Source of the DNA: Branchiostoma floridae
Lineage: Eukaryota > Chordata > Leptocardii > Amphioxiformes > Branchiostomatidae
Assembly: GCF_000003815.2 (NCBI RefSeq)
Contig: NC_049995.1
Coordinates: 5,968,475-6,032,474, forward strand
Direction: 5' to 3'
Length of the DNA: 64,000 nucleotides
The notes under the pieces were generated by a model. It was given only the letters and a program-made list of their open reading frames with translations. It was not told the DNA's origin and did not search any database. Numbering within the stretch: the first letter of the stretch is position 1; each line of letters opens with the position of its first letter. A program made the position numbers and the translations under genes. Below, piece after piece: positions 11,794 through 56,900 of the stretch.

Positions 11794-14700
11794 ATGGCTG
11801 CCACAAACCAAGAAACCCACGCCAGGACAGATCAACCTCGGGCCTACCAAGACAAGAGCTACCTACACGGGTTTCTTGGAACTGTGAGTGACTTTCAGAA
11901 GACTGGGGTACTGCAGGATGTCGTCCTTCAAGTCGAAGGCCGATGGTTTCCCTGCCATCGCCTTGTTCTGTCCGCGGCCAGCCCCTACTTCATGGCCATG
12001 TTCACCAGGGGCATGGTGGAAAGTCGACAGACGAAGGTTGTTTTACAGGTGGGAATGAACTGCTTTTGATTCCAAAATACTGTGGCGAGAACGTATAAGT
12101 TCTTTCACAGAGTTGGCTACACATGCGACAGTAATTCTCTGTAATATGTCAAAGGCAAAGAACCCTGAGATGCAAGCAGTCTCGTCTCGTCCACCGTTAC
12201 TATTTTCCCGTTACCCTAGCATGTGTGGTCAAGTCTGTGAAAGAGCTTATTGTTTACAAAAACAATTTACGTTAAACTCTGCTTTAATCTGTCCCCCAAC
12301 TCCCTTCTTATAATTATTTACCTTCCTGGTAGAGGTTTTTGGTCGACTTTGTACTTCAGAAATTATTATGCTGTTTTCTTTAAGTTAGAAGTTAGAGTTG
12401 TATTATGTGCAAATGATGATAAACGCTATGTCGTTGGATTATTAGCATGGGATACTTTTTACATTTACATAATCAAACATTTCAGATTTGTGATATGTTT
12501 CCCTGTATACCACTGTACATGAATTCAAGATAATGGTATCTTATGTGGCAAAAGGTTGAGCATCCTTGCATTGTATTGTTTTGCAGGGTTTGGATGCAGA
12601 CATGTTTGGGGAGATCCTAAGTTATATCTACTCAGGAACCCTCCATGTGTCTATGGACACAGTGCAGCTCCTGTACCAGGCAGCCGACCTCCTCCAACTG
12701 GACTATGTGAGAGACACCTGCAGCAACTACATGGCTATGAACGTAGAGCGCTCCACCTGTGTGGACCTGTACATGTTTGCTGATGTCTTCTCTGTGAACG
12801 TTGTCCGGAAAGCCTGTCTACAGGAGATTGTTAGGCACTTTTCTGAGGTTAGTCTTCACATTATGGGTTACTTAGGCATGTATTCCAAATGACATGGCTG
12901 ATCCCGATCTTAGCATCACTCGAGTTTATTTGGATCCGGGAGTTTGTCCTAGGACAGGTCTTGATTGCAATCTGTACTAGTAGAATCGACGTTTGTCCTA
13001 GGATGGGTCCTGATTGCAGGTCTGTCCTAGGACAAACTCTGATCACGATCTGTCCTAGGACAATCGGCGACTGTCCTGAATCGCAATCTCTACTGTGACA
13101 TATTTATATGAATTCTGTTACATATGTATCTTGGTTTGAAAAGGTTCGGTGTGACAGGTCATTTCGTCTAATATAAAAAGCTACTGGTGTGCTGCATTTC
13201 TGTATAAATTGGCATACACATGTATAATTTTATACCTGAAAACAAGATTAGACTGAAAAAAGCTTGATGTAGTCTGTACTATGTACATCCTCAGCTTGCC
13301 TCCAGTAAGGAGTTTTGCAGCCTGAGTGTGAATCAGCTGACTGAGATCATCAGCAACGATGAGCTGGATGTTAAAGAGGAGACAATAGTGTGGGAGGCTG
13401 TGGTGAGATGGGTGCAGCACAGCAGGGAAGACAGGTGGGTGTATGTGTTTGGAAACACACATTTATTAATGCATAATCAGGTTTTAAACATGCAATGATA
13501 TTAATTGAGTAAGGCATTGCTATGATACTCTAAAAAACATTCTTCCCTGTACCTTACAGACTGCACCACCTACCCAGTATCCTCCCTCACATCCGCTTCA
13601 ACTTGCTGACCTCAGATGACACGGCAGCCATCTTGGATCACCCCCTGGTCAGGGAGGATGCTGGAAGTTTTAAAGTCATCAGGAAAGTAGTAAATGACAT
13701 TTCGTATCTGAGGAAGAGGTTCGGTATGGACACAATGGAAATGGCTCTACTTCTAAGTTTCAGGTTTGTACACTCTAGTGTCATGTCACAACAAAATGCT
13801 GAAAACTGTGTTTTTGCAATTTTGAAGTATTTTACTGTCATTCAACATTTTACTGTCATTCAACACAAAATTTTCTCACTTCGAATTATGTTTTTACAAT
13901 ATTTGCATGATTATATTGCACGATATTAGTTATACTTACGGTTTACAGACATTTGTACAATATACTTTGGGGAAGCAAATGAAATAAAAATCGTAATATC
14001 CTGCAGTTTAGTGTAATAACAATGAATTAGAATTGTTTGCCTCTCATCAGTACTTTTTAGTAAGCCTTGATGTTCGGTTCGGAACCAGCTGCCATGTTCA
14101 CTGTGACGTCATCGATGGAATAATCAACGTTTAATACAATTACCCGGAGTCAGTAATCAAAAATTGGATGTATGATATTGGATTGTGTGTCATGTTCAAT
14201 AACATCAGAAGAGTGTATATTTAGTGCAAATGTCTGTATTCATTGAATGTTACTAATATCATTGACGTCATTAAAAATATGTTGTATTCTGGTGTCATAA
14301 ACACTTTAAGACAACAGTACACATGCATTGTCTAGTCATAGATACTTACACCAGTCGTAAGTCTACTATGTGGACCGTTCTTTGCTTTTGTGCATTTTGA
14401 TAATCTGTAGAGCCTTTGCTGATAATTTTATGGTAAATTTAGCACATTTTTCTTTACTCTCCAGAAAGAAAGAGATTCTCTTCATGAACCCTCGTGAAGG
14501 AAAGTACATCCGCTGCAGTTACGGTCCTAAAGACCATGGTTATATCTCAGCCATGACAGCCACAAGCGATGACAACATCTACATGCTGGCTAGTGACTTA
14601 GAAGATTCTAGTAAGTTGTGCATGTTTAGGTACGAGCATCTGAAGAACGTGTGGGCACGTGTGTGTTCATTATCTGCGTTCATGAAGCCTGGAAATCATT

Positions 14701-15365
14701 GGCTTGGCTACAAAGAGCACCTTGTTGAAGTTGATCAGTGTCTATACTACATTGGCTTGGTACAGAGAAGAAGCGATTCCTTTATATGGATGAGAAAGTA
14801 CAACCAGCAGAAGGACCAATGGCAGGTCTGTAACGGGCTGTATCTTGATGCAGATCTAGATGCATTCCATGGTGCAGTAGTGCCCTGTGGTCCACACCTC
14901 TATTTCATCACCAAGTTAAGACTGTATCGCTACGACCCGAGCCGAGACCTATGGGTACAGAGGACCCCGACGACAAAATGTGGTCTTTCACCCTCGACAG
15001 CCGTCGCCATGGGAACAGAGATCTTCTGCACGGATGCTCTGTTTACCAAGACTATGGTGTATGACACATGGGCAGACAACTGGCAGCAACTGCAAGGCTG
15101 GTCAGCTCCAGAATCGCCCCCTCCCCGGGCCTCTAGATTCTTCGTATTGGAGAACAAGCTGCACATCTTGTTAGAAACCCACGGCACTGGCAACGTTACT
15201 GCCACTGACGGTGCAGCTTTGCGCTATCTCGTGTATGTGTATGACAGGTCTGCTAATGCCTGGAGAGATCTGAAGGCTACCATACCTGGCAATGATTACG
15301 TGGTGTGTGGTTCCATGTGTCTTGTGGCACCACATATGTACCGCCCACATTTGGATGAGCTGTAA
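11794..15365 (+). CDS. BTB-BACK-kelch (KLHL-like) protein, five exons
   Basis: Coding exons are 11794-12048, 12587-12847, 13295-13434, 13560-13763 and 14465-15365. All junctions are GT-AG and phases match, giving 586 aa. The BTB domain (about residues 25-135) has the typical HRLVLSAASPYFMAMF segment. The BACK domain follows, with LTEII..DEL and WEAVVRWVQH. The last exon encodes the whole beta-propeller, with kelch-type pairs such as YDPSRDLW, VYDTWADNW and VYVYDRSANAW. KLHL proteins usually act as substrate adaptors of CUL3 ubiquitin ligases; that role is inferred here. The start is the first ATG after an acceptor at 11767-11768 (CCTACCCTTTTATACAG), which implies a 5'UTR intron; its context is AACATGG. 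A close tandem paralog starts at 17093. Exon 1 is the intact counterpart of the exon disrupted in that paralog. Confidence 0.88.
12925..13085. repeat. Intronic minisatellite with palindromic TGTCCTAGGACA
   Basis: Four to five irregular units of about 30-45 bp recur in intron 2 of the KLHL-like gene. Each has TGTCCTAGGACA or a one-to-two-base variant, followed by a TGATTGCAATC-like segment. The 12-bp core is a perfect palindrome. Confidence 0.6.
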
Positions 15366-17092: not shown

Positions 17093-17323
17093 ATGGCTGC
17101 CGCTGACCAAGAAACCCACACTATCGCAGTTCGTCCTCGTTGCTACCAAGACGAGAGCTATCTGCACGGGTTTCTTGGGACTGTGGGAGACTTACAGAAG
17201 ACTGGGGTACTGCAGGATGTCGTCCTTGAAGTCGAGGGCCAGAGGTTTCCCTGCCATCGGCTTGTTCTGTCCGCGGCAAGCCCTGTTGGACGCCCGTTTG
17301 AGGCACTTGACATGGTCACGTAA
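17093..17323 (+). CDS. Truncated BTB fragment reading into the inserted element
   Basis: This is the 5' part of the split exon. 64 residues of KLHL N-terminus and BTB (ending LVLSAASP) are followed by 12 residues from the element's left terminus, then a stop. The fragment lacks the second half of BTB, BACK and kelch, so it is unlikely to form a working adaptor. Confidence 0.75.
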   Translation: MAAADQETHTIAVRPRCYQDESYLHGFLGTVGDLQKTGVLQDVVLEVEGQRFPCHRLVLSAASPVGRPFEALDMVT

Positions 17324-17400
17324 AAAAAAGATTAAAAAATTGCGGTGGGCTAAATCAGGCTGTCAAAGGTGTCCTCGTAATCCCCACGAGTTGTTCTATC
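17284..17400 (+). repeat. Left terminal inverted repeat of the giant element
   Basis: It matches the reverse complement of 28828-28944 with about six mismatches. Beyond this point similarity is patchy: ATGGGGGTTTC and CCGGGTC words recur on both sides. Confidence 0.88.
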
Positions 17401-17884
17401 TGCCTTGTGAATCTCAAGCGATGGACTTTTACGAGAAAGTATATATTTGATGTCAAAGTTGACCGATTTTCGACAGCTTTTTCCTATGGTTTCGCCATTG
17501 TTTTCAAGCCGAAATACGCACCGTATGGGGGTTTCGGGGTGTCCGCTTAGTGGGCGAGGTTCAACTGTTTCCGGGTCACGCTATACCGTTGCGGCAGTCA
17601 CTCGGGACCTCACTCGGTAGTGTACACAAGTACTTTTGATGGTGCTGTCAGCGTTTTATCACGTTACGAAGTAATATTGAAATGTCTTTGAAGTATAAGA
17701 CAGCACTATGATCTGTAAGGTGTTATTCCAATAGGTTGCGTCGTGGGTAAAGTGAACTGTAGGTAACGTTACCCGACGAAGGCTTTTTGCATCTGACTGT
17801 TAACTGTTGCATATTAGATACATTGCTCGCGCCTGACTAAGGGATTAACTAAGATTAGAACAGTATATAGCTAATCAATAGCGA

Positions 17885-20800
17885 ATAACGTTCAGAAGAG
17901 AAACTGTGCCAATTTGAATGACACAAAAAATAGCGCCGTAAGAATTGTAACGTTATATAGCTAACTTGTAGCGGAAAACGTGTTCAGAAGACAAACTGTG
18001 TCAATTTGAATGACACATCTAAAGTACCGTTGTGCGCTGCATTAAGTGTATATAGCTAACTAATAGCGAAAAACGTGTTCAGAAGAGAAACTGTCAATTT
18101 GAATGACACACTCACAGAACAGTAAGAACTATAACGTTATGTAGCTACGTATACATGTAATAGCGCAAAACGTGTTCAGAAGACAAACAGTGTCAATTTG
18201 AATGACACACTTGCAGATAGCGCAATAAGAACTGTACATAGCTAACTCATAGCGGAAAAAGCGTTCAGGAGACAAACTGTCAATTTGAATGACACACTTA
18301 CAGGTAGCGCAATAAGAAATGTATATAGCTAACTCATAGCGAAGTGTAACGTGATCAGAAGACAAACTGTGTCAATTTGAATGACACACTTGCAGATAGC
18401 GCAATAAGAACTGTATATAGCAAACTAATAGCGGAAAAAGCGTTCAGGAGACAAACTGTGTCAATTTGAATGACACACTTGCAGATAGCGCAATAAGATC
18501 TGTATATAGCAAACTAATAGCGGAAAAAGCGTTCAGAAGACAAACTGTGTCAATTTGAATGACACACTTGCAGATAGCGCAATAAGAACTGTATATAGCA
18601 AACTAATAGCGGAAAAAGTGTTCAGAAGACAAACTGTGTCAATTTGAATGACACACTTGCAGATAGCGCAATAAGAAATGTACATAGCTAACTCATAGCG
18701 AAGTGTAACGTGTTCAGAAGACAAACTGTGTCAATTTGAATGACACACTTGCAGATAGCGCAATAAGAACTGTATATAGCAAACTAATAGCGGAAAAAGT
18801 GTTCAGGAGACAAACTGTGTCAATTTGAATGACACACTTACAGGTAGCGCAATAAGAACTGTATATAGCAAACTAATAGCGGAAAAAGTGCTCAGGAGAC
18901 AAACTGTGTCAATTTGAATGACACACTTGCAGATAGCGCAATAAGAACTGTATATAGCAAACTAATAGCGGAAAAAGTGTTCAGGAGACAAACTGTGTCA
19001 ATTTGAATGACACACTTGCAGATAGCGCAATAAGATCTGTATATAGCAAACTAATAGCGGAAAAAGTGTTCAGGAGACAAACTGTCAATTTGAATGACAC
19101 ACTGGCAGATAGCGCAATAAGAACTGTATATAGCAAACTAATAGCGGAAAAAGTGATCAGAAGACAAACTGTGTCAATTTGAATGACACACTTGCAGATA
19201 GCGCAATAAGAAATGCACATAGCTAACTCATAGCGAAGTGTAACGTGATCAGAAGACAAACTGTCAATTTGAATGACACACTTGCAGATAGCGCAATAAG
19301 AACTGTATATAGTAAACTAATAGCGGAAAAAGTGTTCAGGAGACAAACTGTCAATTTGAATGACACACTGGCAGATAGCGCAATAAGAACTGTATATACC
19401 AAACTAATAGCGGAAAAAGTGTTCAGGAGACAAACTGTGTCAATTTGAATGACACACTTGCAGATAGCGCAATAAGAACAGTTTATAGCAAACTAATAGC
19501 GGAAAAAGTGTTCAGAAGACAAACTGTGTCAATTTGAATGACACACTTGCAGATAGCGCAATAAGAACAGTTTATAGCAAACTAATAGCGGAAAAAGTGT
19601 TCAGAAGACAAACTGTGTCAATTTGAATGACACACTTGCAGATAGCGCAATAAGAAATGTACATAGCTAACTCATAGCGAAGTGTTACGTGTTCAGAAGA
19701 CAAACTGTGTCAATTTGAATGACACACTTGCAGATAGCGCAATAAGAACTGTATATAGTAAACTAATAGCGGAAAAAGTGTTCAGGAGACAAACTGTGTC
19801 AATTTGAATGACACACTTGCAGATAGCGCAATAAGAAATGTATATAGCAAACTAATAGCAGAAAAAGCGTTCAGGAGACAAACTGTGTCAATTTGAATGA
19901 CACACTTGCAGATAGCGCAATAAGAACTGTATATAGCAAACTAATAGCTGAAAAAGTGTTCAGGAGACAAACTGTGTCAATTTGAATGACACACTTGCAG
20001 ATAGCGCAATAAGAACTGTATATAGCAAACTAATAGCGGAAAAAGCGTTCAGGAGACAAACTGTGTCAATTTGAATGACACACTTGCAGATAGCGCAATA
20101 AGAACTGTATATAGCAAACTAATAGCGGAAAAAGTGTTCAGGAGACAAACTGTGTCAATTTGAATGACACACTTGCAGATAGCGCAATAAGATCTGTATA
20201 TAGCACACTAATAGCGGAAAAAGTGTTCCAGAGACAAACTGTGCATTTGAATGACACACTGGCAGATAGCGCAATAAGAAATGTCATAGCTAACGCATAG
20301 CGAAGTGTAACGTGTTCAGAAGACAAACTGTGTCAATTTGAATGACACACNNNNNNNNNNNNNNNNNNNNNNNNNNNNNNNNNNNNNNNNNNNNNNNNNN
20401 NNNNNNNNNNNNNNNNNNNNNNNNNNNNNNNNNNNNNNNNNNNNNNNNNNNNNNNNNNNNNNNNNNNNNNNNNNNNNNNNNNNNNNNNNNNNNNNNNNNN
20501 NNNNNNNNNNNNNNNNNNNNNNNNNNNNNNNNNNNNNNNNNNNNNNNNNNNNNNNNNNNNNNNNNNNNNNNNNNNNNNNNNNNNNNNNNNNNNNNNNNNN
20601 NNNNNNNNNNNNNNNNNNNNNNNNNNNNNNNNNNNNNNNNNNNNNNNNNNNNNNNNNNNNNNNNNNNNNNNNNNNNNNNNNNNNNNNNNNNNNNNNNNNN
20701 NNNNNNNNNNNNNNNNNNNNNNNNNNNNNNNNNNNNNNNNNNNNNNNNNNNNNNNNNNNNNNNNNNNNNNNNNNNNNNNNNNNNNNNNNNNNNNNNNNNN

Positions 20801-23800
20801 NNNNNNNNNNNNNNNNNNNNNNNNNNNNNNNNNNNNNNNNNNNNNNNNNNNNNNNNNNNNNNNNNNNNNNNNNNNNNNNNNNNNNNNNNNNNNNNNNNNN
20901 NNNNNNNNNNNNNNNNNNNNNNNNNNNNNNNNNNNNNNNNNNNNNNNNNNNNNNNNNNNNNNNNNNNNNNNNNNNNNNNNNNNNNNNNNNNNNGCGCAAT
21001 AAGAAATAAGAAATGTATATAGCAAACTAATAGCGGAAAAAGCGTTCAGGAGACAAACTGTGTCAATTTGAATGACACACTTGCAGATAGCGCAATAAGA
21101 ACTGTATATAGCAAACTAATAGCTGAAAAAGTGTTCAGAAGACAAACTGTGTCAATTTGAATGACACACTTGCAGATAGCGCAATAAGAACTGTATATAC
21201 CAAACTAATAGCGGAAAAAGTGTTCAGGAGACAAACTGTGTCAATTTGAAGGACACACTTGCAGATAGCGCAATAAGAACAGTTTATAGCAAACTAATAG
21301 CGGAAAAAGTGTTCAGAAGACACACTGTGTCAATTTGAATGACACACTTGCAGATAGCGCAATAAGAAAGGTACATAGCTAACTCATAGCGAAGTGTTAC
21401 GTGTTCAGAAGACAAACTGTGTCAATTTGAATGACACACTTGCAGATAGCGCAATAAGAACTGTATATAGCAAACTAATAGCAAAAAAGCGTTCAGGAGA
21501 CAAACTGTGTCAATTTGAATGACACACTTGCAGATAGCGCAATAAGAACTGTATATAGCAAACTAATAGCAGAAAAAGTGTTCAGGAGACAATTTGTGTC
21601 AATTTGAATGACACACTTGCAGATAGCGCAATAAGAAATGTATATAGCAAACTAATAGCTGAAAAAGTGTTCAGGAGACAAACTGTGTCAATTTGAATGA
21701 CACACTTGCAGATAGCGCAATAAGAACTGTATATAGCAAACTAATAGCGGAAAAAGCATTCAGGAGACAAACTGTGTCAATTTGAATGACACACTTGCAG
21801 ATAGCGCAATAAGAAATGTATATAGCAAACTAATAGCGGAAAAAGTGTTCAGGAGACAAACTGTCAATTTGAATGACACACTGGCAGATAGCGCAATAAG
21901 AACTGTATATAGCAAACTAATAGCGGAAAAAGTGATCAGAAGACAAACTGTGTCAATTTGAATGACACACTTGCAGATAGCGCAATAAGAACTGTATATA
22001 GTAAACTAATAGCGGAAAAAGTGTTCAGGAGACAAACTGTGTCAATTTGAATGACACACTTGCAGATAGCGCAATAAGAACTGTACATAGCTAACTCATA
22101 GCGGAAAAAGCGTTCAGGAGACAAACTGTGTCAATTTGAATGGCACACTTACAGGTAGCGCAATAAGAAATGTATATAGCAAACTAATAGCGGAAAAAGT
22201 GTTCAGAAGACAAACTGTGTCAATTTGAATGACACACTGGCAGATAGCGCAATAAGATCTGTATATACCAAACTAATAGCGGAAAAAGTGTTCAGGAGAC
22301 AAACTGTGTCAATTTGAATTACACACTTGCAGATAGCGCAATAAGAACAGTTTATAGCAAACTAATAGCGGAAAAAGTGTTCAGAAGACACACTGTGTCA
22401 ATTTGAATGACACACTTGCAGATAGCGCAATAAGAAATGTACATAGCTAACTCATAGCGAAGTGTTACGTGTTCAGAAGACAAACTGTGTCAATTTGAAT
22501 GACACACTTGCAGATAGCGCAATAAGAAATGTACATAGCTAACTCATAGCGAAGTGTTACGTGTTCAGAAGACAAACTGTGTCAATTTGAATGACACACT
22601 TGCAGATAGCGCAATAAGAACTGTATATAGCAGACTAATAGCGGAAAAAGTGATCAGAAGACAACTGTGTCAATTTGAATGACACACTTGCAGATAGCGC
22701 AATAAGAACTGTATATAGTAAACTAATAGCGGAAAAAGTGTTCAGGAGACAAACTGTGTCAATTTGAATGACACACTTGCAGATAGCGCAATAAGAACTG
22801 TACATAGCTAACTCATAGCGGAAAAAGCGTTCAGGAGACAAACTGTGTCAATTTGAATGGCACACTTACAGGTAGCGCAATAAGAAATGTATATAGCTAA
22901 CTCATAGCGAAGTGTAACGTGATCAGAAGACAAACTGTGTCAATTTGAATGACACACTTGCAGATAGCGCAATAAGAACTGTACATAGCTAACTCATAGC
23001 GGAAAAAGCGTTCAGGAGACAAACTGTGTCAATTTGAATGACACACTTGCAGATAGCGCAATAAGAACTGTATATAGCAAACTAATAGCGGAAAAAGTGT
23101 TCAGAAGACTAACTGTGTCAATTTGAAACACACTTACAGGTAGCGCAATAAGAAATGTACATAGCTAACTAATAGCGAAGTGTAACGCGTTCAGTTGACA
23201 AACTGTGTCAATTTGAATGACACACTTGCAGATAGCGCAATAAGAACTGTATATAGCAAACTAATAGCGGAAAAAGTGTTCAGGAGACAAACTGTGTCAA
23301 TTGAATGACGCATTTATAGAACAGCGATGTATGTAAGAACTGTATATATCAAACTTAAAGCAAAAAACGTGTTCAGAAGACTACCTGTGTCAATATGACA
23401 CATTATAGAACAAAGCTGTTAGAACTGTATATAGCAAACTAATAGCGAAAAACGTGTTCAGGGGACAAACTGTGTCAATTTGAATGGTACACTTGCAGAA
23501 TAGCGCCGTAAGAACTGTATATACATGTAACGTTAGCTAGCTTAAAGCAGAAAGCGTGTTCAAGAGACAAACTGTGTCAATTTTAATGACACACAGAATA
23601 GCGCCAAAAAACTGTATATAGCTAACTTAAAGCATAAAGTGAGTTCAGAAGACTACCTGTGTCAATTTGAATGACACACCTATAGAATAAGCACTGTTAC
23701 AACATGTATATATATTTAACTAACAACGCAACGTGTTCAAGAGACAAACTGTGTCAATTTGAATGACACATTATAGAACAGTGCTGTAAGAACTTTATAT

Positions 23801-24140
23801 AGCAAACTAATAGCGAAAGACGTGTTCAGGAGACAAGCTGTGTCAATTTGAATGGCACACTGACAGAATAGCGCCGTTAAAACAGTATATAACTAACTTA
23901 AAGCGAAAAGTGTATTCAGTAGACTACCTGTGTCAATTTGAATGACAGATTTATAGAAAAGTGCTGTAAGAACTGTATATAGCGGATAACGTGTTCAGGG
24001 GACAAACTGTGTCAATTTGCATGACATACTCACATTATAGCGCCGTAAAAACAGTACATAGCTATCCAATTAAAAAAAAACGTGTTTAGGATACAAAATG
24101 TGTCTATGTGAATGACACATTCATAGAACAGCGAGGTAGA
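17885..24140 (+). repeat. Satellite array, left arm (89-bp unit)
   Basis: Tandem units have a period of 89 bp; for example, CAATTTGAATGACACAC starts at 18373, 18462, 18551 and 18640. A few units lack four bases (GTGT). Each unit carries TGTGTCA and TGACACA separated by seven bases, a potential small hairpin, followed by GATAGCGCAATAAGAACTGT. Two variants alternate: one with CAAACTAATAGCGGAAAAAG and one with CTAACTCATAGCGAAGTG. Units are highly uniform from about 18130 to 23330 and diverged at both edges. From span and period there are about 50 visible units, not individually counted. The array contains an assembly gap. Confidence 0.92.
20351..20993. other. Assembly gap (run of N)
   Basis: 643 N bases interrupt the satellite array. 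The array continues in register type on both sides, so the gap is most likely more of the same satellite, and its stated size may be arbitrary. Confidence 0.97.
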
Positions 24141-25420
24141 TTTATTTTGACGAAAGCTTGCTCTAACAAAAACTTTTTCAATCGGATGATCATACTATTT
24201 GATTATCGCTTTACTTTACTTGTTTGTCATATGAATTGACACAGTTGCCCTCCTAACGAAGTTTTCTGTTGTAAAATGGTTATATGCAGTTCTTACAGCG
24301 CTTTTCTTTAGGTGTGTCATACAAACTGACACAGTTTTGTGTCCTGAACACATTAGCCGTTAAGATTTAGTCATACATTTGTATACTATACGTTCGGCGC
24401 TATTCTACAAATGTATCGAAACAAATCGACACAGCTGTGCTTTTGACTACGTTTTCATCAATAAAGTTGTTAGGTACAGCCCAAAGTACACTTTTTACCA
24501 GTGTGTCATATAAATTGACACAAATTCTTTACTGTCCAACTTTTTCCGTGATCAATTTTACACACGTTAAACAGCGCTTTTCTAATTGTGGGTGATATAG
24601 ATTGACACAGTTGTCCCCCGGAAAAACGTTTTCCATTTTTAAGACACGGTTCAAACATCGCTTACAAAGGTGTCAGACAAATTCACGCAATTTCCCTCCT
24701 GAAAAAGTCGTCCGCCATCAAGACAATTTTACACTGATTTCACATCGTGTTTCATAGCGTGTCATATGAAATAACAGTTGTCCTCCTGACAAGGTTTTCT
24801 GTCATTTGATACAGTTGTCGTCCTGACCGTGAGGGTTTTCCGTTTTGTGAAATTTCAATAAGTTTTAAAAAACTTGTTAATTGACACAGTTGTCGTCCCG
24901 ACCAAGTCTTCCATCAGTTAAATACTGTTTAATCATCGCACTAGTGTGCCATACTATCAGTGACAGTTGTCCACCAAAGTTTCCGTCATGAGGCAGTTTT
25001 ATACTGTTTAACACTCGGTTATTAATTGCAAAGCCGTCCTCCTGACAAAGTTTTCTGTTATAAACTATTGTGTCAATTAATGTGACAAACTAGCAAACTG
25101 AATAGATATGCCTAAATCGTATAATCATTCGATTGAAAAAGTTTTCGGCAGAGCGAGTTTTCCGTCATAAGATAGTTATTATGCGTTTCAAAAGTGTGTC
25201 ATATGATTGACACAGTTTTCAGCTCAGACAGCGCAGTACTAGATTTGACAGTTTACTTGAACAAGTTAGTATTTGAGTTACTTTAAACCCTACCATGGTC
25301 CAAACTCCAGTAATCAGTTGTTAATTGATATGAAATAACCGCATCTAAAGTCATATATATTCGAAGGAACGCCATTTAGTTCGTAAGAAGGGACCTTAGA
25401 ACTTGTCTGACACACTTGCA
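24141..25420. repeat. Diverged centre between the two satellite arms
   Basis: Widely spaced, decayed satellite words (GTGTCAT...TTGACACAG) appear here in the inverted orientation. No protein-coding frame is seen. A short segment at about 25370-25410 (TTAGTTCGTAAGAAGGGACC) resembles 28430-28460 at the outer end of the right arm. This suggests past duplication or rearrangement inside the element. Confidence 0.6.
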
Positions 25421-28400
25421 GAAAAGCGCTGCCTGAACCGCGCTATTATGTAAGTGTGTCATTCATATTGACACAGTTTGTCTCCTGAACACGTATTTTG
25501 CTATTAGTTAGCTATATACAGTTCTTACGGCGCTATTATGTAAGTGCGTCATTCAAATTGACACAGTTTGTCTCCTGAATACGTTTTCGGTATTAGTTTG
25601 TTATATACAGTTATTTGGGCGCTGTCTACAAGTGTGTCATTCAAATTGACACAGTTTGACATTTGAACACGCATTCCGCTTTAAGTTAACTATATACAGT
25701 TCTTACAGCGCTATTCTATAATGCATTGTGTCATTCAAATTGACACAGTTTGTCTCCTGAACATGTTTTTCGCTCCTAGTTAGCTATATACAGTTCTTAC
25801 GGCACTATCATGTAAGTGTGTCATTCAAATTGACACAGTTTGACTCCTGAACACGTGTTTTCGCTATTAGTTAGCTATATACAGTTCTTACGGCACTATT
25901 ATGTAAGTGTGTCATTCAAATTGACACAGTTGGACTCCTGAACACGTTTTCCGCTATTAGTTAGCTATATACAGCTCTTTTAGCTTTGTTCTATAAGTGT
26001 GTCATTCAAATTGACACAGTTTGACATTTGAACACGCATTGCGCTTTAAGTTAGCTATATACAGTTCTTACAGCGCTGTTCTATGAATGCATCATTCAAA
26101 TTGTGTAATTCAAATTGACACAGTTTGACTCCTGAACACGTGTTTTCGCTATTAGTTAGCTATATACAGTTCTTACGGCACTATTATGTAAGTGTGTCAT
26201 TCAAATTGACACAGTTGGACTCCTGAACACGTTTTCCGCTATTAGTTAGCTATATACAGCTCTTTTAGCTTTGTTCTATAAGTGTGTCATTCAAATTGAC
26301 ACAGTTTGACATTTGAACACGCATTGCGCTTTAAGTTAGCTATATACAGTTCTTACAGCGCTGTTCTATGAATGCATCATTCAAATTGACACAATTTTTC
26401 TCCTGAACACCCTTTTTCGCTATTAGTTAGCTATATACAGTTCATTCAGCTTTGTTCTGCAAGTGTGTCATTCAAATTGGCACAGGTTGACACCTGAATA
26501 CGTTTTCCGCGATTTCTTAGCTATATACAGGTCTTACATTGCTGTTCTATAAATGTGTCATTCAAAGTGACACATTTTGTCTCCTGAACACGTTTCTCGC
26601 TATTAGTGAGCTATACACAGTTCTTACGGCGCTATTATGTCAGTGTGTCATTCAAATTGACATAGTTTGTCTCCTGAACACGTTTACGCTATTAGTTAGC
26701 TATATACAGTTCTTACGGCACTATTATGTAAGTGTGTCATTCAAATTGACACAGTTTGACTCCTGAACACGTTTTCCGCTATTAGTTAGCTATATACAGT
26801 TCTTTTAGCTTTGTTCTATAAGTGTGTCATTCAAATTGACACAGTTTGACATTTGAACACGCATTCCGCTTTAAGTTACCTATATACAGTTCTTACAGCG
26901 CTATTCTATAATGCATTGTGTCATTCAAATTGACACAGTTTGTCTCCTGAACACGTTTTTCACTATTAGTTAGCTATATACAGTCCTTACGGCACCATTA
27001 TGTAAGCGTGTCATTCAAATTGACACAGTTGGACTCCTGAACACGTTTTTCGCTATTAGTTAGCTATATACATTTCTTTCAGCTTTGTTCTATAAGTGTG
27101 TCATTCAAAGTGACACAGTTGGACTCCTGAACACGCATTGCACTTTAAGTTACCTATATACATATTTTTTACAGCGCTGTTCTATGAATGCAGCATTCAA
27201 ATTGACACAGTTTGTCTCCTGAACACGTTTTTCGCAATTAGTTAGCTGTATACAGTTCATTCAGCTTTGTTCTATAAGTGTGTCATTCAAATTGACACAG
27301 TTTGTCTCCTGAATACGTTTTCGCTATTAGTTTGCTATATACAGTTCTTTGGGCGCTGCCTACAAGTGTGTCATTCAAATTGACACAGATTGACATTTGA
27401 ACACGCATTCCGCTTCAAGTTAACTATATACAGTTCTTACAGCGCTATTCTATAATGCATTGTGTCATTCAAATTGGCACAGTTTGTCTCCTGAACATGT
27501 TTTTCGCTCCTAGTTAGCTATATACAGTTCTTACGGCACTATCATGTAACTGTGTCATTCAAATTGACACAGTTTGACTCCTGAACACGTTTTTCGCTAT
27601 TAGTTAGCTGTATACAGTTCATTCAGCTTTGTTCTATAAGTGTGTCATTCAAATTGACACAGTTTGTCTCCTGAATACGTTTTCGGTATTAGTTTGCTAT
27701 ATACAGTTCTTTGGGCGCTGTCTACAAGTGTGTCATTCAAATTGACACAGATTGACACTTGAACACGCATTCCGCTTCAAGTTAACTATATACAGTTCTT
27801 ACAGCGCTATTCTATAATGCATTGTGTCATTCAAATTGGCACAGTTTGTCTCCTGAACATGTTTTTCGCTCCTAGTTAGCTATATACAGTTCTTACGGCA
27901 CTATCATGTAAGTGTGTCATTCAAATTGACACAGTTTGACTCCTGAACACGTTTTCCGCTATTAGTTAGCTATATACAGTTCTTTTAGCTTTGTTCTATA
28001 AGTGTGTCATTCAAATTGGCACAGTTTGACACCTGAATACGTTTTCCGCGATTACTTAATAGCTATATACAGGTCTAACATCGCTGTTCTATAAATGTGT
28101 CATTCAAAGTGACACATTTTGTCTCCTGAACACGTTTCTCGCTATTTGTTAGATACATACAGTTCTTACGGCGCTATTATGTATGTGCGCCATTCAAATT
28201 GACATAGTTTGTCTTCTAAACACGTTTATCGCTATTAGTTAAGCTAACATACAGTTCTTACGGTGCTATTATGTAAGTGTGTCATTCAAATTGACACGGT
28301 TTGTCTCCCCAAGGAGGTCTCCCGAACACGTTTTCCGCTATTAGTTCCCTGTATACACTTCTTACAGCACTGTTCTATAAATGTGTTATTCAAATTAACA

Positions 28401-28425
28401 CAGTTTGTCTCCTGATGTCTACGAG
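25421..28425 (-). repeat. Satellite array, right arm (inverted, about 90-bp unit)
   Basis: This is the same satellite read in reverse complement, with TGTGTCATTCAAATTGACAC cores about 90-91 bp apart (for example 25821, 25912, 26002). Higher-order repetition is visible: a block of about three units starting near 25840 recurs near 26120, and another block near 27270 recurs near 27635. With the left arm it forms a palindrome-like structure exceeding 10 kb. Confidence 0.9.
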
Positions 28426-28827
28426 AATGCCAGTTAGTTCGTTCGGAAGGGACCTTACAACCGTTGCAGATTCGCAACGTGGGCCGAGACGATACGAACA
28501 AACACAAACTTAAAAAACGTTCTGCAAGTTCAAACATACTTTCGCCAAGAGTCCCTTAACAAACCTAATTTAACAATATGCGTAAGCCTGACTTGAATCC
28601 TCCTCTACCGAACCTCAGACTGAGACCGTCAAGATACCTGGTGACCCGCGTTCAATGACCTCACTCGTACGACCCGGAAGTATATGATCGTAATCGGTTG
28701 CACGGAAACCCCCATGCAGTGCGAAATCGAGGCCGAAAACAGGCATAAAGAGCCAGTTTGAAGGCTAACTTTGACTCTTCAAATCTCATCCCGAAATAAT
28801 ATTTGAATCAACACGAGTACTGTAGGC

Positions 28828-28944
28828 GATAGAACAACTCGTGGGGATTACGTGGGCACCTTTGACAGCCTGATTTGGGCCACCGCGATTTTTTAATCTT
28901 TTTTTTACGCGACCATGTCAAGTGCCTCAAACGGGCGTCCAACA
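28828..28944 (-). repeat. Right terminal inverted repeat of the giant element
   Basis: Inverted partner of 17284-17400, ending CCAACA immediately before the GCCC target duplicate and the remainder of the BTB exon. Confidence 0.88.
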
Positions 28945-29400
28945 GCCCCTACTTCAGGGCCATGTTTACAAGTGACATGGCGGAAAGTCGGCAGAAGACA
29001 GTTGTGTTACAGGTAGGGTTGGCGTGACGTGTGGTTAGAATAGAGTGAAAAGGGCAACTTTCAAAGTTGCTACTTATCATGGAGAATTTATAACCACGTA
29101 TATATACAATAATAACCACGAGTTCTTGTTAAACTTTTCTCTGATAAGTGTTGTGTTCCTTGTCATGCCCCCTCCCCAGTTCGTACTAACCCCTTTGGTA
29201 TTTCGGGCTTCAAGTTCAACTTTCTAGCCTATAATATTTTCAGTTTTCAAAACTTAGAAATGCTTCCGGTTATAAGCACCAGAGCACGGTGTATAAGTTA
29301 AAATAATGTAGAAAAACGAATGCATGTTAATCATTGATATAAATAATACTTAATCATATTTTAATGTTATGAACGTTTGGATGCTTGAAATCTTTTACAG

Positions 29401-32400
29401 GATTTGAGTGCAGCTATTTTTGGGGAGATCCTGAGATACATTTACTCCGGAAACCTTAATGTATCGATGGACAAAGTGCAGCCCCTGTACCAGCTGCAGG
29501 CAGCCAGCCTCCTCCAACTGGACTATGTGAGAGACACCTGCAGCAGCTACATGGCCATGAACGTGGAGGGCTCCAACTGTGTGAATCTGTACAAGTTTGC
29601 TGATGTCTTCTCTGTGGACATTGTCCGGAAAACTTGTCTGCAGTTTATCTGTAGAAACTTTGTTGAGGTGGGTCTGATATTTTGATACTAGGTCAGTAGT
29701 CACTTTATCCTAGTCACTTCTCTCTCACGATTGGGAGCTTGGAAGCAATGCCATTAATTTTCTAGAAGACGTGTTAATGTACAATTTTTGAAAAATTATA
29801 GTTTTATCATTTCTTGCACTGTAAGTATTGTAAGTACGATGACCATTCTTTTAAAGATCAAATTTTGTGGATGTGTGGGCCTGAGTTAGATGCAATGGTA
29901 GGTGCAGCTCAGACATACTGTACGGGATAGCATCTGGAATTTTGGATGATGACGTTAAACTGATGGCCCAGTGTATGAAAGAGCTTAAGAGTATGCCTCA
30001 AGCGTTAAACCCCTGCACGTAATGGAACCCAACAAACCTATCAACAAAGTGTAGGTGTGATGACCCGATTCGTTTGGTTGAAAACGTGTGACGTGACAAG
30101 GCCACCATGCAGTTTCACGAATTTGGTTACATTTCATTTTCAATTTAACCATCATATCTGTCATCAGGAAAATATTGAAGATTAAAACCCACTTTTCAGA
30201 GCTAGTTTTTCAGTTTCAGAAAATCTTTACCAAGAAAGTTTTTTTCCACAGTTTTACACATCTACAATAAATAACATGTCCACAGATTGCCTCCAGTGAG
30301 AAGTTTTGCAGCTTGAGTGTGAGTCAGCTGACTGAGATCATCAGCCACGATGACCTGGATATTAAAGAGGAGACAACAGTGTGGGAGGCTGTGGTGAGAT
30401 GGGTGCAGCACAACAGAGAGGACAGGTGGGCGCTGTATAATTATCAATATATTTTCCAACCTTGTGTCTTCTTCATTGCATGTATGAAGTCTTGGAGATT
30501 ACTTTGAATGACAAGTTGTTTTTTTCCATGAGGCTCAGTGTCCCTTACCAGGTAACTCAACCACCAAAAACTGCGAAAAATGAATAAAAATTGGCAGGAT
30601 AGAATTCAAAATGTCCAAAAATATTTTCTACACATGACAGGCATATATTATGCAGTATTTTAAGATGGGCAAACTACTATTGAAGATGGCCTACCTGTAC
30701 TATAGTATAATGCAATGGTGCCAGGCTAACCTTGTTTTAGTGCAGTGACCTCAGATGACCCCTAAAATGTATGCCATAGCTGGATTCAAACATATTCCCT
30801 GCAGTGATTTAAAAAAAGTCATCCTATGTACCCTACAGACTGCAACACCTACCCAGCATCCTACCTCACATCCGCTTCAACCTGCTGACTTCAGGCAACA
30901 TAGCAGCCATCTTGGAACACCCCCTGGTCAGGGAGGACCCTGGGAGTTCAAAGGCCATCAGGAATGTGGTAAAGAAGAGGAACCCCAACCTGAAGCCAAG
31001 GCTTGGGATGACCATGGAGATGGCTATTCTATCCAACACAGAGTCTGTATATACTTCTTTTGTTTGACTTTCTAGATTGCGACCTTGCGCATTGTCTTTT
31101 TTCAATTCCAGTTATTTCACCCAAAGCAAACATTAACATGCGCAGCGACACGTGCCTTCCAGGTCTTCCATGAAAATTGTGTAAACCTTATTACAGTCCG
31201 CAATTACAAACACTTGAACATATAATGCAAATATTTTACAGACGTTTAACAATTAACAGGAAAAAAAGTAAGAGGGCCAGCAATCTTAACCTACAATGTA
31301 TTAGTCAGCATTTGTATGTTTCAGGGGTGGGCGCGCTATGTTGAAGGTCCATACACAGGCCGCCTTTCCTGTTGGTGCCTTTGTTTCCTTTTGGAGTATG
31401 TAAAACATTATTTTCAGCATCTCTGCTTATCAATTCGTAGTTAGGTTATGAAACCAGTGTTTTCTACCATATCACCTCATTATAACTGACAGAATGAAGT
31501 GGATGCTACCCGAAACGTTTGACCATCTTCAAAACCATATCGCTTAAGTAATGTTTCTGTTGTGTCATATTACCTGTATATAAATGTTTTACCCTCATCA
31601 ACGCAACATTTTATGTATGTTACCCTTTCCAGGACCGATGAGCTCCTCTTTATGAACCCTCAGCAAGGGAGGTACATCAGCTGCAGTTACAAACCTGAAG
31701 ACATACCTGAAGTCACAGCCTTAACAGCCACCAATGATAACAACATCTACATCCTGGTTAATGAGTATGACGGCCTCGATCAACTGTATATGTTCAGATA
31801 TAACCATGCAGAAAACTTTTGGGGACATGGCGGTATATCAAAAGTATCTAAATTTAAAAGAGTGCACTCAGGTTTGTTAACTCATTGGAATGAGTTCCTT
31901 GTTGAAGTTGACCATGTTTTATACTACGGTGCTGCTGATCTAGGAGAAGGCAATACATTGGTGAGGATGAGAAAGTACAACTGGCAAATGGATCAGTGGC
32001 AGGGTTGTTCACAGTTGCAAATTGATGGAACAGAATCTAGTGAGCTCAGCGTGGCATTGTCCTGTGGTGCACAGATCTATTTCATCATGACCTCAGCAAT
32101 GCATCGCTACGACCCAAGCCAGGACTGTTGGTGCGAGCGGACTCCACCGAATATGAAATCACCTTACTCACATTTCACAGCTGTTGCCATGGGAACGAAG
32201 ATCTTCTATACATATCTTGAATTCACTCAGATGATGGTGTATGATACAGATTCTGACCGCTGGCAGAAACTACAAGGCTGGCCAAACCCAGGAAACCGCA
32301 GCATCACTCACACTCCCAGTCTTTTTGTACTGGAGAACCAGCTGCACATATTGTTGGAAGTATATGACAGGGACACACCGGGATTATCATCAGACTATCT

Positions 32401-32566
32401 GGTATATGTGTATGACAGGTCTGCTGATGCCTGGAGAGATTTGAAGGCCACCCTGCCTAAAAAGGAGTATATAGCACACGGTCCTTCTTGCCCTGTGGCA
32501 CGCATGTATCTACCATACCTTAGAGGGGCGCAAAAACACATTACTGCTTATGCTTGTCAGCATTAA
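29401..32566 (+). CDS. Downstream exons 2-5 of the split KLHL-like paralog
   Basis: These exons encode the second half of BTB (FGEILRYIYSG, DYVRDTCSSYMAMN), the BACK domain (LTEIISHDDLDIKEET and WEAVVRWVQH) and a one-exon kelch propeller (YDPSQDCW, VYDTDSDRW, VYVYDRSADAW). Junction phases are 0, 0, 2 and 2, as in the intact paralog. No inactivating change is visible. An AATAAA lies only seven bases after the stop, at 32573-32578. Whether these exons are transcribed on this chromosome is unknown. Confidence 0.82.
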
Positions 32567-50900: not shown

Positions 50901-53900
50901 CTTGTTTTTGTGTCTGTGTCCTTAGGCTCCGGTTCTGGAGGCGGACAATGTGGTATGTATCTTGTACACATTTGCAAATCACTATTTGCTTGTAGGCTGC
51001 GACATAAATTGGTGGCGAACGTAACGGACCACGTCACACAGTACAAGCGGGAGATTCAGTTACATTTCTGAGAATGGATATAGGCACATTTTCTGTCCTA
51101 CAGCTGGTAGTACTACCAACATTGCCCGGGGTCAACAAGCACAGCAGTCTAGGACCCAGGTTGGCAATGCTGAAAATACTGTGGACGGGAACACAAACCC
51201 ATCTTTGAGGTCCTGCACATTAACCAGCTACGTAGAGAATCCGTGGTGGCGAGTCGACCTGGGTGTCTCCAAGTGTGTGGACAGAGTCGTCATCACCAAC
51301 CTACGGTCCTGTTGCTCGGAATACCTCAGGTGAACGTTCACTATTACGCAGGATTAGAATTCCATGCTATTCAACTTGATTTGTTAAAAGAAGCCTTTTC
51401 CGACTTGGGAAATGCTGGCATTTTTGAGCTGGAAATTACAAGTAAGGGGTTTGGCTATTTTATTTTGTGAAAATGAAACGCTATGTTTGGGGTCTCCTGG
51501 GCAGTCTAAGATATGTTTGGTGACCCTTGACCTACTCAGGGAGGATAGTAACAGTTCGTTCTGCTGCTGTGTTGGCCTTTACACCGTACGAAAATGACCG
51601 AAACGTTCTAGACAGACAAAATACAAGTCAGAATTTGCTGCCAATTTGGGTTTACCACCGACTAAACCTCAGGTAGGTGACTTTTGACAGCCCTTTTCTG
51701 ACATGTTTTCTACGTATGAGAGACTAAATTGGTGGCCTTTCACACTCAGCGGCTTCAAGCTGTACGTTGGAGACAACCCAACCGTGACCGACAACCCAAC
51801 GTGTGGGGGCGAGCAAGGGTCTACACTGGGCAAGTGGCAAATAACCGTGAGCTGTGGCCTTCGTACCGGCCGGTACGTGGGGATAGCTCTACCGGGCTGG
51901 AATTCCTTCGCCTTGTGTGAAGTGCAGGTCTTTGGAGGTAAGATTGTTTTGCTTTTCCGGGTTGTGGTTTGCTGTTTTCTGTTCTTATTCTCTAGTCTAC
52001 ACTTATTCTAATACTCGCATCCTGTACCTAATACTTAATCATTCAAAAGGGTTCGAGTTGGTTCCGTATCTATATTGTTGCTTATGGCCTTCATACGTAG
52101 TCAAACGCATAATGCGTACCTCATACGCCTTTGAACCATTTTGTGTAAGGTACTCTGGCATAATAGTAAGTTTAAGTAGTATTTCTGATAACTAATATGT
52201 GCTAGATTTGGTTGAAATTTCTTTGTCAAGTTGCCCCAAACAAGTAGTTGTAGTGTTCTGGATGCCGGGTCGATGTTTTTATAACATTCTATAAAGGAGA
52301 ATACATATTATATTATATATTCTGCACTAATATACAAAACGTTTCCCTTACCATGTTTCTCTGGTTCTGGAGGTGGACAAGCTACTCAACGTGGTATGTA
52401 ACTTACACAGATTAAAAACTTGGTATTGACTTAACACCTGGTGTAGACTGGTATATATCTACATGTACTGCCACCCGATTACTTTATATTCTCGGTTGCG
52501 TGTTAGATATTAAAAAAGGCTCTAACTGCTGGTACACCGAATTTATCTGTCGGCTTATGTGATAACATGTGACGCTGATAAACCTCAATTTTTTTCACAT
52601 TATAATGTGAATTACCTTACGTCAAACTTCATTGTTGTTTTGCAGAAAATTCACATACTTTTCACATTTATGCACATCTTAGTGGTATTCCATCACCCAT
52701 GTCCAGTATCAGGGTGAAATGCACGAAGTTGTCCTAAGTTAAGTTAGATGTCTGAAGTTGTCCAAAGTTGTCCAAAGTTGTACGAACTTGTCCGAAGTTA
52801 TGACGTCATCTAAACTTTGGACAGTCAGCCGGGTGGTGTACGGAGTTGTACGAACTTGTCCGAAGTTATGACGTCACGCTAACCATGACGTCATCTAAAC
52901 TTTGGACAGTCAGCCGGGTGGTGTACGGAGTTGTAAGAACTTGTCCGAAGTTATGACGTCACGCTAAGCATGACGTCATCTAAACTTTGGACAGTCAGCC
53001 GGGTGTACTGATCAGGTCGCGTATTCCTAGGAAGATGTCGCCTAGCATGACTTTGGCGATACATATACTACACTACGCGTCTACAAGTTTTCTGTGTTAC
53101 GTTCAAATGTCTCAACTGTCATTTCTAGAACTTTTTTCTAATGTTCTCATCTTCTTAGACGTCACAATCTGACGCTTACGTCACTAACTCAGGTGTTTTC
53201 GTAATTCGAAACCGGAATGCGTTCTTCGAACGGTGTCGTTTTTCAGTCTAACAGTTTGAAACCGTGTGGCGATGAAGTCGCCACGGCTACTTTTTAGTCT
53301 GTGTCTTTGACGAAATAGACTTTTTTAACGGGGGAATTACGGACAATATTATATCATATCATGTCGTGCAGTAAATCTTTGAAGGCTACAGATCTCCATT
53401 CGTCCTAGAGAGTCGAGTTTGACTGGAAGGATTTTCCGGAAGAACTTGTTCAGGTGGGTTAGTCGTATTAATCGCACCTTGATATCTTTTGAGTTCTGAC
53501 TTTTGATTCATAAATCTTATATTCTTTAGAAGTTACATCTTACAAAACAACAGATTTTTTTATCAGAATGCAGATTACTTATCTTTATTAAGATTTGTCT
53601 TATTCTTCACAGGGATGTTGTGCTGTTGCATCTGTTTTGTGCGTGCCAACGGTGGCTGTTTTATATAGCCTTATCACGGTCGCGGCTTTTGCTGTAAGCC
53701 AGGCACAAGTCTCTCCACCTGACACCAAATGGAGGGAAAATGTTCTTCTGTGGACAGCCATCTGTCTGCCAACAGGTAGATTTACTTCTTAACACCTTTT
53801 TATTGTTTCAAATCAAACGTTTGATTCAATGTAGATATAACGTTATATGTTCAAAATTTACAACCGTCATTTCTAGAACCAATACCTTGTCGAACATTCT

Positions 53901-56900
53901 TTTGCTTAACGTCACCAACAGACATTTACGTCATTTGCTCAGGTGATTTTTGAAATTCGAACCCGGAATGCGTTCGTAGAATGGTGTCGTTTTTCAATCT
54001 CTGTATTGCGCCACGGCTGCTTTTATTTCATTTGTTCTATTCTTTCTAAACATCTATTAGCGGGGATCAATGATGATAGGTAAGCGGAAAATTGATTTTT
54101 TAATGTATACAGAATTGCGATGATGTTGATCATTTTTGCGTCGATATCTGTTTCCATAAGGATTATTTATTATACGCTATTCTTAATATAAAGTAGTTAA
54201 AATGACCAGCTACTTAATGTTGTTTACCTGATTTTATTATTTGCTATTGCTTTGTTTAGTTTAGTGTTAGCGTTGTCTTCGAAAAGATAGCATTGATGAG
54301 ATGATTAAGTGTGTCTTGTAAATGAATCGTGAAACGATAAATAGCGACGACAACAATTAACGTTGGCATTAGTGAGTGACAATTTCTTTTTAATTAAAAC
54401 ACAGCGAAGCAGAAGAAGACATGAATAAGTCCATTGAGGCAAACGATGTGATCGGGGGAGAGAAAAGGAAGCTGTGCGCCGCTTCAACGCTGCTGTCTCC
54501 ACTATGTGATGCAGACGATGACTACGACTTTGCTCTGACAACCAATAAAAGGAGATCAATTTAAACAGTCTTTCTATGTAAAAGGGGTGTGACCGTGCAG
54601 GCAGAAAATGGCATACTTCTGTACTAAATGGTGGAAGTACTTCAATTAATTGTTAAATTACAAGGAATAAAATAACAACTACTACTTCTTATGATACAAA
54701 GTAGTGAAAGATGACTGCAATACATGTAGTTTATAAGTAGATAGGGGAGATGTTTTCAGGTACTTGTATTTAGAAGTGACGTAAAAAAAGGGAAATATAA
54801 TATTAAGAGTGAACTTAAATTATTTTGTGTGCATTGTTAAAACGAACGTTAAGAGGAGAAATAAAAGACAAAAAAATTGAAATAAATGAATTTTTTTACA
54901 TTGCATGAACATTGATTTTGTGCTGATTAATGTGCATCTATATTTTATTTGTTTATATGCGTGAGTGGTGTGTATCTTATTTACACATATATAAGTTTTT
55001 ACTATGTATTAATTAACTTGTTGACCTACCCTGCCTACTGTACGAAGTTAGATGACGTCACGTAACTTTGCACAACTTAGGACAACTTTGCACACTTGTT
55101 GACCTACCCTGCCCACTGTCCAAAGTTAGATGACGTCACGTAACTTTGCACAACTTAGGACAACTTTGCACACTTGTTGACCTACCCTGCCCACTGTCCA
55201 AAGTTAGATGACGTCACGTAACTTTGCACAACTTAGGACAACTTTGCACACTTGTTGACCTACCCTGCCTACTGTCCAAAGTTAGATGACGTCACGTAAC
55301 TTTGCACAACTTAGGACAACTTCGCACACTTGTTGACCTACCCTGCCGACTGTCCAAAGTTAGATGACGTCACGTAACTTTGCACAACTTAGGACAACTT
55401 CGCACACATGCCGCCCTACCCTGCCCACTGTCCAAAGTTAGATGACGTCACGTAACTTTGCACAACTTAGGACAACTTCGCACACATGCCGCCCTACCCT
55501 GCCCACTGTCCAAAGTTAGATGACGTCACGTAACTTTGCACAACTTAGGACAACTTCGCACACATGCCACCCTACCCTGCCTACTGTACGAAGTTAGATG
55601 ACGTCACGTAACTTTGCACAACTTCGGACAACTTCGTACACTTGACACCCTACCCTGCCTACTGTACGAAGTTAGATTACGTCATCCAATAAATGTTTTG
55701 ACGTCATCTGTGACTCCCGATATAGCATCAAAGCCAGTGGGAAACGGTTGTAACTTAGTACAACTTCGTACAACTTCGTACACCCTAACTTCGTGCACTT
55801 CACCCTGATACTGGACATAGCTCTATTCCATACACATGTTTACTACTTCGGATGGCCGCGTCTGACCTCAAATTAATTTAGAGCGCCTGTTTGGATGAAT
55901 TACGGATTCTAAACCTTTGTAAAAAGGCTGCGACGTTTTTGGGCCGTAGAATTCATGCAGCAAGAGATATCATACGTTGATGCTATTAAAGAAATATTCT
56001 ATAATTTCCAGTAGAGTCCAGTAGAATCCGTCTCATTGGAACTCCTGGTTCAGGCCCAAACGAAGGGCGTGTGGAAGTCCGGCCGGCCGACAGTTTTAGA
56101 TGGGGGCTGGTTTGCAGTAACAATTTCGACTTGAAGGATGCGGAAGTTGTTTGCAGAATGTTGGGTTATCCTCATGCAGATCAAGTTCGTCCTTCTGAGT
56201 ATTCCTATCCAGGTATATGCTATTTCTCACGCGTAACTTTTCATTACACGTGCCGAAACATATTAATCACTTTGAATTCTCTGCCTTTGTGATGGCCACA
56301 TATCCTCCGCATTCTTTCCTTCTTTACATTTAGGAACAGGACCAATCTACATGGATGGCCTACGGTGTAATGGAAACGAGAGTAGCCTGTTTAACTGCTC
56401 GTACCCAGGATGGGGGATTCATGACTGTAATCTAGTTGGCGTTGCTGGCATCGTCTGCGGTACATGAATATAATACCTGTTTCTATATCTACCTTACTCC
56501 AAGTCGTTTTACAATTTACCTGAAACAGTATAGACGCGATGGAAGGCTTAGGTCACATTTCCAAAAGGGGGCCCGGCCGCGATGTTTTAACCCTCTTCAG
56601 ACCGGGCTTTTTTGGTCATCCCTGGACCGGGGGGGGGGGGCTTTTGAGGCCCTCCATTTCTAAGTCCTATAACTCTAAAACGACGAGCCGTAAGGCCACC
56701 AAATTTATCGGACATAATTTCGACATAATATCTGACAAGTATGTGACGTTTGACGTTACGTTGACGTAAGATGACGTAATCATGACGTCATCAATTTGAT
56801 TACATTGGCCAAACCCATGAAAATTGGGTATTCTCAGAAAACTTGAATGTAAAAAATGTAACATCAAGTGCAGATAACAGAATAATAATGTTTATTACGA

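Follow-up and report, generated by a model that had tools for sequence, protein, structure and literature searches.

A satellite-bearing, probably non-autonomous DNA transposon splits a BTB-kelch exon in Branchiostoma floridae

Results

The split BTB-kelch exon and its paralogs

The window analyzed, a stretch of 64,000 nucleotides from Branchiostoma floridae, carries a BTB-kelch gene whose exon 1 is divided by a long insertion, with a 5′ part of 191 nt (17093–17283, including the left copy of a GCCC duplication) and a 3′ part of 64 nt (28949–29012) that is followed by a GT donor. The downstream exons of the same gene lie at 29385–32458 in four blocks having 67–91% identity to the paralog at 12571–15287, and an intact paralogous BTB exon of 255 nt is located at 11794–12048, all on the plus strand. 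The two halves add up to 255 nt, exactly the length of the intact exon as the initial annotation had stated, and when joined they keep an open frame across the junction, with the translation HRLVLSAASPYFRAMFTSDM. Two unrelated minisatellites were also observed in the window, at 52800–53005 and 55016–55684, the first with a unit of 85 bp (98% matches) and the second with one of 78 bp (96%), and GACGTCA is present in the units of both.

The genome was searched with the joined exon, in which the junction falls at query positions 204/205. All 40 scored places (159 candidates) were uninterrupted at 88–95% identity, with matches beginning at 1–6 and ending at 295–350, so the uninterrupted exon is the ancestral state. 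Among the 40 of 159 candidates scored, no empty allele of the locus 17284–28944 was found in the assembly, the best uninterrupted exon (95% over query 2–295) belonging to paralogs. The predicted protein of the split gene best matches the B. floridae BTB-kelch protein P0002 (98% over 89% of the query), which has 531 aa and the N-terminus MFTSDMAESRQ. This start lies just beyond the right edge of the insertion, so that the beginning of the BTB domain is missing from the gene model as deposited. The insertion is a real exon disruption that breaks the reading frame of one BTB-kelch member. At least 40 paralogs of this exon 1 were recorded at 88–95%, mainly on C10, C5 and C17 (the contig holding the window) with most on C10, and the BTB-kelch genes form a large young family in which the loss of one member may be tolerated.

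Structure of the inserted element

The element occupies 17284–28944, and the size of 11.66 kb first given for it holds as an assembly length of 11,661 bp, of which 643 are N (20351–20993, within the left array). It is bordered by GCCC copies at 17280–17283 and 28945–28948, and its terminal inverted repeats, at 17284–17400 (plus strand, beginning TGTTGGACGCCCG) and 28828–28944 (minus strand, ending CGGGCGTCCAACA), are 117–118 bp long, 94.9% alike and terminate in TGTTG...CAACA; the inverted ends of about 117 bp, the TGT...ACA termini and the GCCC duplication described initially were therefore all recovered, with ends about 95% alike. Inside the ends lie a left unique subterminal module (17401–17854, plus) and a right one (28402–28827, minus), which beyond the ends share one 19-bp block with a score matched by 4 of 500 shuffles, and homology between them is at most weak.

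Two oppositely oriented arrays of one satellite with monomers of about 89 bp flank a center of 1.3 kb. The left array (17855–24138, plus) holds 61 well-matching forward monomers and the right array (25436–28401, minus) holds 32 reversed ones, while the central module (24125–25440, minus) consists of diverged monomers, mainly reversed, that the monomer profile detects from about 24207 to 25440, with short forward pieces at 25070–25099, 25196–25241 and 25401–25440, and about 0.4 kb of it was not recognized as satellite. The arms are 75–88% complementary in 24 internal arm pairs among the matches listed (24 of 1145), and since the two arrays are complementary the element is a foldback. The monomer of about 89 bp bears the inverted repeat TGTGTCA-n7-TGACACA. 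The element is accordingly large and satellite-rich, as had been proposed, but it is built of two opposed arrays with a diverged center and not of one block; this foldback layout, the N gap and the sister family described below had been missed.

Distribution, ends and target-site duplications of family A

Copies of the element, referred to as family A, are dispersed in the genome. With the left end as query, 20 of 39 other scored places were 99–100% identical (40 of 135 candidates scored), and when three mismatches were allowed, a 34-base pattern of the end occurred 65 times genome-wide (32 + 33), as compared with 0 for the reversed-pattern control. These ends form 28 convergent pairs of 3,897–17,224 bp (median 7,600), the longest of which contains a nested insertion, together with nine single ends and no divergent neighboring pairs within 20 kb. 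A sample of 30 stretches was taken, giving 31 extracted elements with 25 two-ended copies, and in all 25 the forward array comes first and the reversed array second, oriented by end type. The 11 N-free two-ended copies contain 10–37 forward and 6–31 reversed monomers. In most cases all three modules are 96–99.6% identical to those of the window copy, the central module being 96–99.5% alike in most copies. L019 is older, with left, central and right modules 94, 76 and 87% identical to those of the window; the right module of L011 is 93% identical, and L018 has no central module and contains 100 N.

Target duplications were scored in the 24 two-ended copies with both flanks, C341 being left out because it has no left flank, and comprised 17 exact 4-bp duplications, two of 5 bp and five copies with none. 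When the flanks were re-paired, more than seven exact 4-bp duplications never arose in 10,000 shuffles, and this, together with the end counts, rules out chance. The sequences of the 17 exact duplications reveal no fixed target. The five copies without an exact duplication are L010, L016, L019, L024 and L030, and the right terminal bases of L024 are altered. The dispersed copies sharing ends and target duplications make family A a terminal inverted repeat (TIR) transposon; insertion of a transposase type, and further copies with these ends and 4-bp duplications as the check on it, had been put forward in the initial annotation, and both are borne out by the 65 ends and the 17 of 24 exact duplications. 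The first base of the small, 13.8-kb contig of L009 (G000:C341) coincides with an element end; besides one complete copy, this contig contains another left end in reversed orientation. A third end type, TGTTRSACGCCCATTTGAGGCATAAGACATGGTCA, was observed as two single ends at G000:C9:913436 and C11:8074823, for which no partner end was found within three mismatches. An exact 32-mer of the element end had no match in viral contigs.

Age of the copies and behavior of the arrays

The unique modules of family A differ by a mean of 1.75% between pairs over the 14 copies holding all three modules, and the window copy differs from its nearest relative, L020, at 13 of 2429 sites (0.54%). Heterozygosity in amphioxus is given as 3.2–4.2% (PMC12500494). 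Judged by this difference, the window insertion is estimated to be younger than a typical allele pair and is probably polymorphic in the population, and family A is young.

Within one copy, the divergence among monomers of the same arm is 13.5% (forward) and 19.6% (reversed), and between copies it is 14.0% and 20.3%, respectively. As the within-copy and between-copy differences are about the same, the arrays predate the spread of the family and were carried along in their existing state. The outermost monomers differ between copies by 4.2% and 3.0%, as compared with 10–13% and 13–20% on the center side; outer monomers that are near-fixed with inner ones that are not agree with gains and losses of monomers in the interior of the arrays. 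These comparisons cover 23 of the 31 elements, leaving out L009b, L016, L022, L023, L033, L034, L037 and L038, as well as monomers with more than 10 gaps; the same eight elements are left out of the TGTCAA and monomer-conservation results given below.

A sister family with a different satellite

A search with the left module (40 of 62 candidates scored) found five listed places matching a 131-bp part at 85–86%, corresponding to element positions 169–299 (window 17452–17582). These places lead to a second family, B, which starts sharply, with 18 listed copies beginning at positions 164–166 of L039, one of the five places, and one at 153. It begins TGTTGACCGCCGAAAAGAGGCACAAGACATCGTCACG, which aligns without gaps to the family A end with 27 of 37 positions identical; the 131-bp shared part lies at an equal distance from the end in both families, and positions 1–168 of the two give a similarity score of 50, where the highest of 500 shuffles reached 47.

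Behind the family B end in L039 lies a 105-bp tandem repeat, whose consensus scores 70 against that of the approximately 89-bp monomer in the same orientation (shuffle maximum 67, n = 500). The family A monomer profile gave 22 forward-strand matches on the L039 array, starting at profile positions 13–15, the best of them at 10.1 bits (E 0.003), and 14 of them score above every one of 21 control sequences (at most 5.7 bits), as compared with three reverse-strand matches of at most 4.1 bits. These signals are weak singly and consistent together, and they suggest a similarity between the two satellites.

The ends of family B form 18 convergent pairs of 1.9–15.0 kb; the underlying count of 57 + 57 ends covers all types, and the pairs were partly assigned by position and by matches to the L039 start. 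A search for the family B satellite, with all 25 candidates scored, gave 209 matches, about 150 of them listed, at 21 loci, with 17 loci lying within end pairs, three beside a single end and one, C9:9442289–9445643, next to a match to the left module for which no end was listed. For the 1.9-kb pair on C1 no satellite occurred among the matches listed. Among those listed (about 150 of 209), the satellite runs in one direction at every locus, as in the copy on C4, where it fills 92660–96623 of 91565–97167 one-way, and family B therefore does not look like a foldback. At G000:C7:8983475–8998515, a family B pair 15 kb apart has a middle of about 9 kb (roughly 8986000 to 8994990) without a listed satellite match, which may be a nested insertion or an autonomous copy.

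Coding capacity and search for a partner element

Seven frames from the unique parts were compared with Pfam and none reached the cut-off, although one weakly resembled a phage tail protein (15.1 bits, where 24.2 would be required), in agreement with the lack of visible coding capacity noted earlier. None of the seven gave an integrase-like match, which a non-autonomous copy would lack anyway. Six of the 31 extracted elements have frames of at least 130 aa, which lie within, or extend into, what look like insertions. End-pattern searches of the genome revealed neither a transposase nor an autonomous copy, the family B interiors searched being part of L039 and six newly found family A end loci standing outside the search.

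Two candidate partners were rejected. In L033 (G000:C12:10871606–10888829), a family A copy, the left module is interrupted by a nested insertion of 7.5 kb, and this insert was set aside because it has AT repeated at its edges and inverted ends of its own; its frames presumably resemble a DDE transposase and a YqaJ-type nuclease, and the frames of L037 and L038 have what we take to be a reverse-transcriptase look. L040 was rejected because its shared stretch lies inside a larger repeat. That different young repeat (L040:1–988 and L041, C7:10022500–10026000) is 97–99% alike at 39 other scored places, has a sharp right edge near L040:987 and holds a stretch 85% like the right module and end of family A, which looks like a captured fragment since the sharing of the repeat extends to the left of it. 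The end-like 38-mer of this repeat occurs at 64 genome places, its CTAG edge gives the impression of a Helitron, and the 41-aa frame beside the shared stretch had no Pfam match.

Discussion

Proposed mechanism and its alternatives

By established transposon biology, inverted ends and 4-bp duplications shared by scattered copies mean DDE-type insertion. We consider it probable (about 0.88) that the element belongs to a young multicopy family of non-autonomous DNA transposons that are mobilized in trans, insert at a 4-bp stagger and have a satellite body. A transposase supplied in trans would recognize the ends of about 117 bp, cut out the whole unit and join it to a target staggered by 4 bp, which would produce the 4-bp duplication. 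The cargo is a large satellite in two facing arrays of one monomer of about 89 bp around a fixed center, and on this account the arrays gain and lose monomers internally with their outer edges fixed, so that copies of family A differ in length. The window copy landed in exon 1 of one BTB-kelch member, breaking its frame. Mobilization in trans is reached by elimination, because coding is absent and no transposase or autonomous copy was found, and we infer movement by cut-and-paste. The five of 24 copies without an exact duplication and the two with 5 bp speak against this account.

An assembly chimera, to which the 643-N gap inside the element could point, is exceedingly improbable in the face of 28 convergent pairs at separate places, 17 of 24 exact duplications and a frame-true exon join; the element is real, not an artefact, and has many relatives. 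The supplier of the transposase bears on another proposal, namely that family A is a non-autonomous derivative of Ginger1 or Ginger2 moved by a Gypsy-integrase-like transposase. As far as described in PMC2836005, these have TGTNR-type ends, inverted repeats of 40–270 bp and 4-bp (sometimes 5-bp) duplications, Ginger1 duplications being CCGG- or CCGT/ACGG-specific and the Ginger2 target RTATAY, and both occur in lancelet. The TGTTG ends, 117-bp inverted repeats and 4-bp and 5-bp duplications of family A fit this description (PMC2836005). However, none of the 17 exact duplications is CCGG, CCGT or ACGG, none is TATA as in Ginger2/Tdd, and the seven frames gave no integrase-like match. We therefore rejected membership on target sequence and regard this origin as unlikely; the Ginger1-like ends suggested initially did not survive the target comparison, in spite of the fitting TGTNR termini and 4-bp size. 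Chapaev, Sola and Academ also make 4-bp duplications, and a transposase from such a superfamily, for which the size of the duplication speaks, is less likely than not.

Role of the satellite

The satellite could be passive, having colonized an older transposon and grown there through unequal exchange without contributing to transposition, and we lean slightly towards this explanation. Transposition tolerates the variation between copies (10–37 forward and 6–31 reversed monomers in the 11 N-free ones), and in family B (27 monomers, one copy) the palindrome core is not the best conserved window, which argues against a simple binding-site hypothesis. Set against passivity are a weakly similar satellite in the same place in two diverged families and the palindromic core within the most conserved 19-bp window of both family A arms. 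In 627 forward and 584 reversed monomers from 23 elements, conservation in 19-bp circular windows is highest for those starting at 88 (forward) and 86 (reversed), at 0.986 and 0.962 against medians of 0.901 and 0.869, and these windows cover core positions 1–19 except for one and three bases, respectively. Families A and B carry a related array in the same place behind related ends, of about 89 versus about 105 bp and facing versus one-way. Each 117-bp end also contains two copies of TGTCAA, a motif chosen after the satellite had been seen (P 0.001 and 0.0015 by mononucleotide shuffling). A protein-binding function of the palindromic monomer core is speculative, and we think it rather unlikely that the satellite is a working inherited organ whose palindromic protein-binding sites would aid assembly of the transposition complex or counter host silencing.

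Relation to known elements

Like family A, the Tetris foldback of Drosophila virilis, as far as portrayed in PMC4079207, is non-coding with inverted ends and no autonomous partner found, is ordered as flanking domain, variable tandem-repeat domain, inner domain and middle domain, and varies in repeat number between copies. Tetris has repeats of about 220 bp (three or four in the left arm of compared allelic copies), 8–10-bp duplications and three structurally complete copies (PMC4079207), whereas family A has monomers of about 89 bp, mostly tens per arm, 4-bp duplications and 28 convergent pairs, and only the outer 117 bp or so of its flanks are alike. The foldback trait of long inverted tandem-repeat arms around a middle domain is present in all 25 two-ended copies; the 8–10-bp duplications of the Mutator-type foldbacks are absent from the 24 copies scored (17 of 4 bp, two of 5 bp, five none). 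Galileo, a foldback-like member of the P superfamily, likewise has tandem repeats inside its long ends, and these carry extra transposase-binding sites according to PMC4079207. Unlike Galileo, family A makes 4-bp duplications and its membership of the P superfamily is not supported. P-type target duplications are 7–8 bp long. The Helentron-borne satellites of Crassostrea gigas resemble family A as arrays dispersed by a non-autonomous element, so far as sketched in PMC7492417. Family A differs from them in having inverted ends and target duplications. To our knowledge, Helitrons have neither. No description of such an amphioxus element was found in the literature covered, most subscription journals and Repbase lying outside its scope, and on the best reading family A is a variant of foldback-type, satellite-bearing transposons for which we found no description in print.

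Significance

The findings indicate that a TIR transposon carries kilobase satellite arrays ready-made from place to place, which is one answer to how satellites become dispersed in euchromatin. The insertions of family A are young and include one in a coding exon. If the satellite were a working organ of the transposon, such elements would carry finished arrays of several kilobases into euchromatin and exons at once. Population tests are practicable, since the copies are less divergent than typical alleles, and because families A and B are related and yet carry different satellites, one can now ask whether transposons are able to maintain a satellite as one of their own components.
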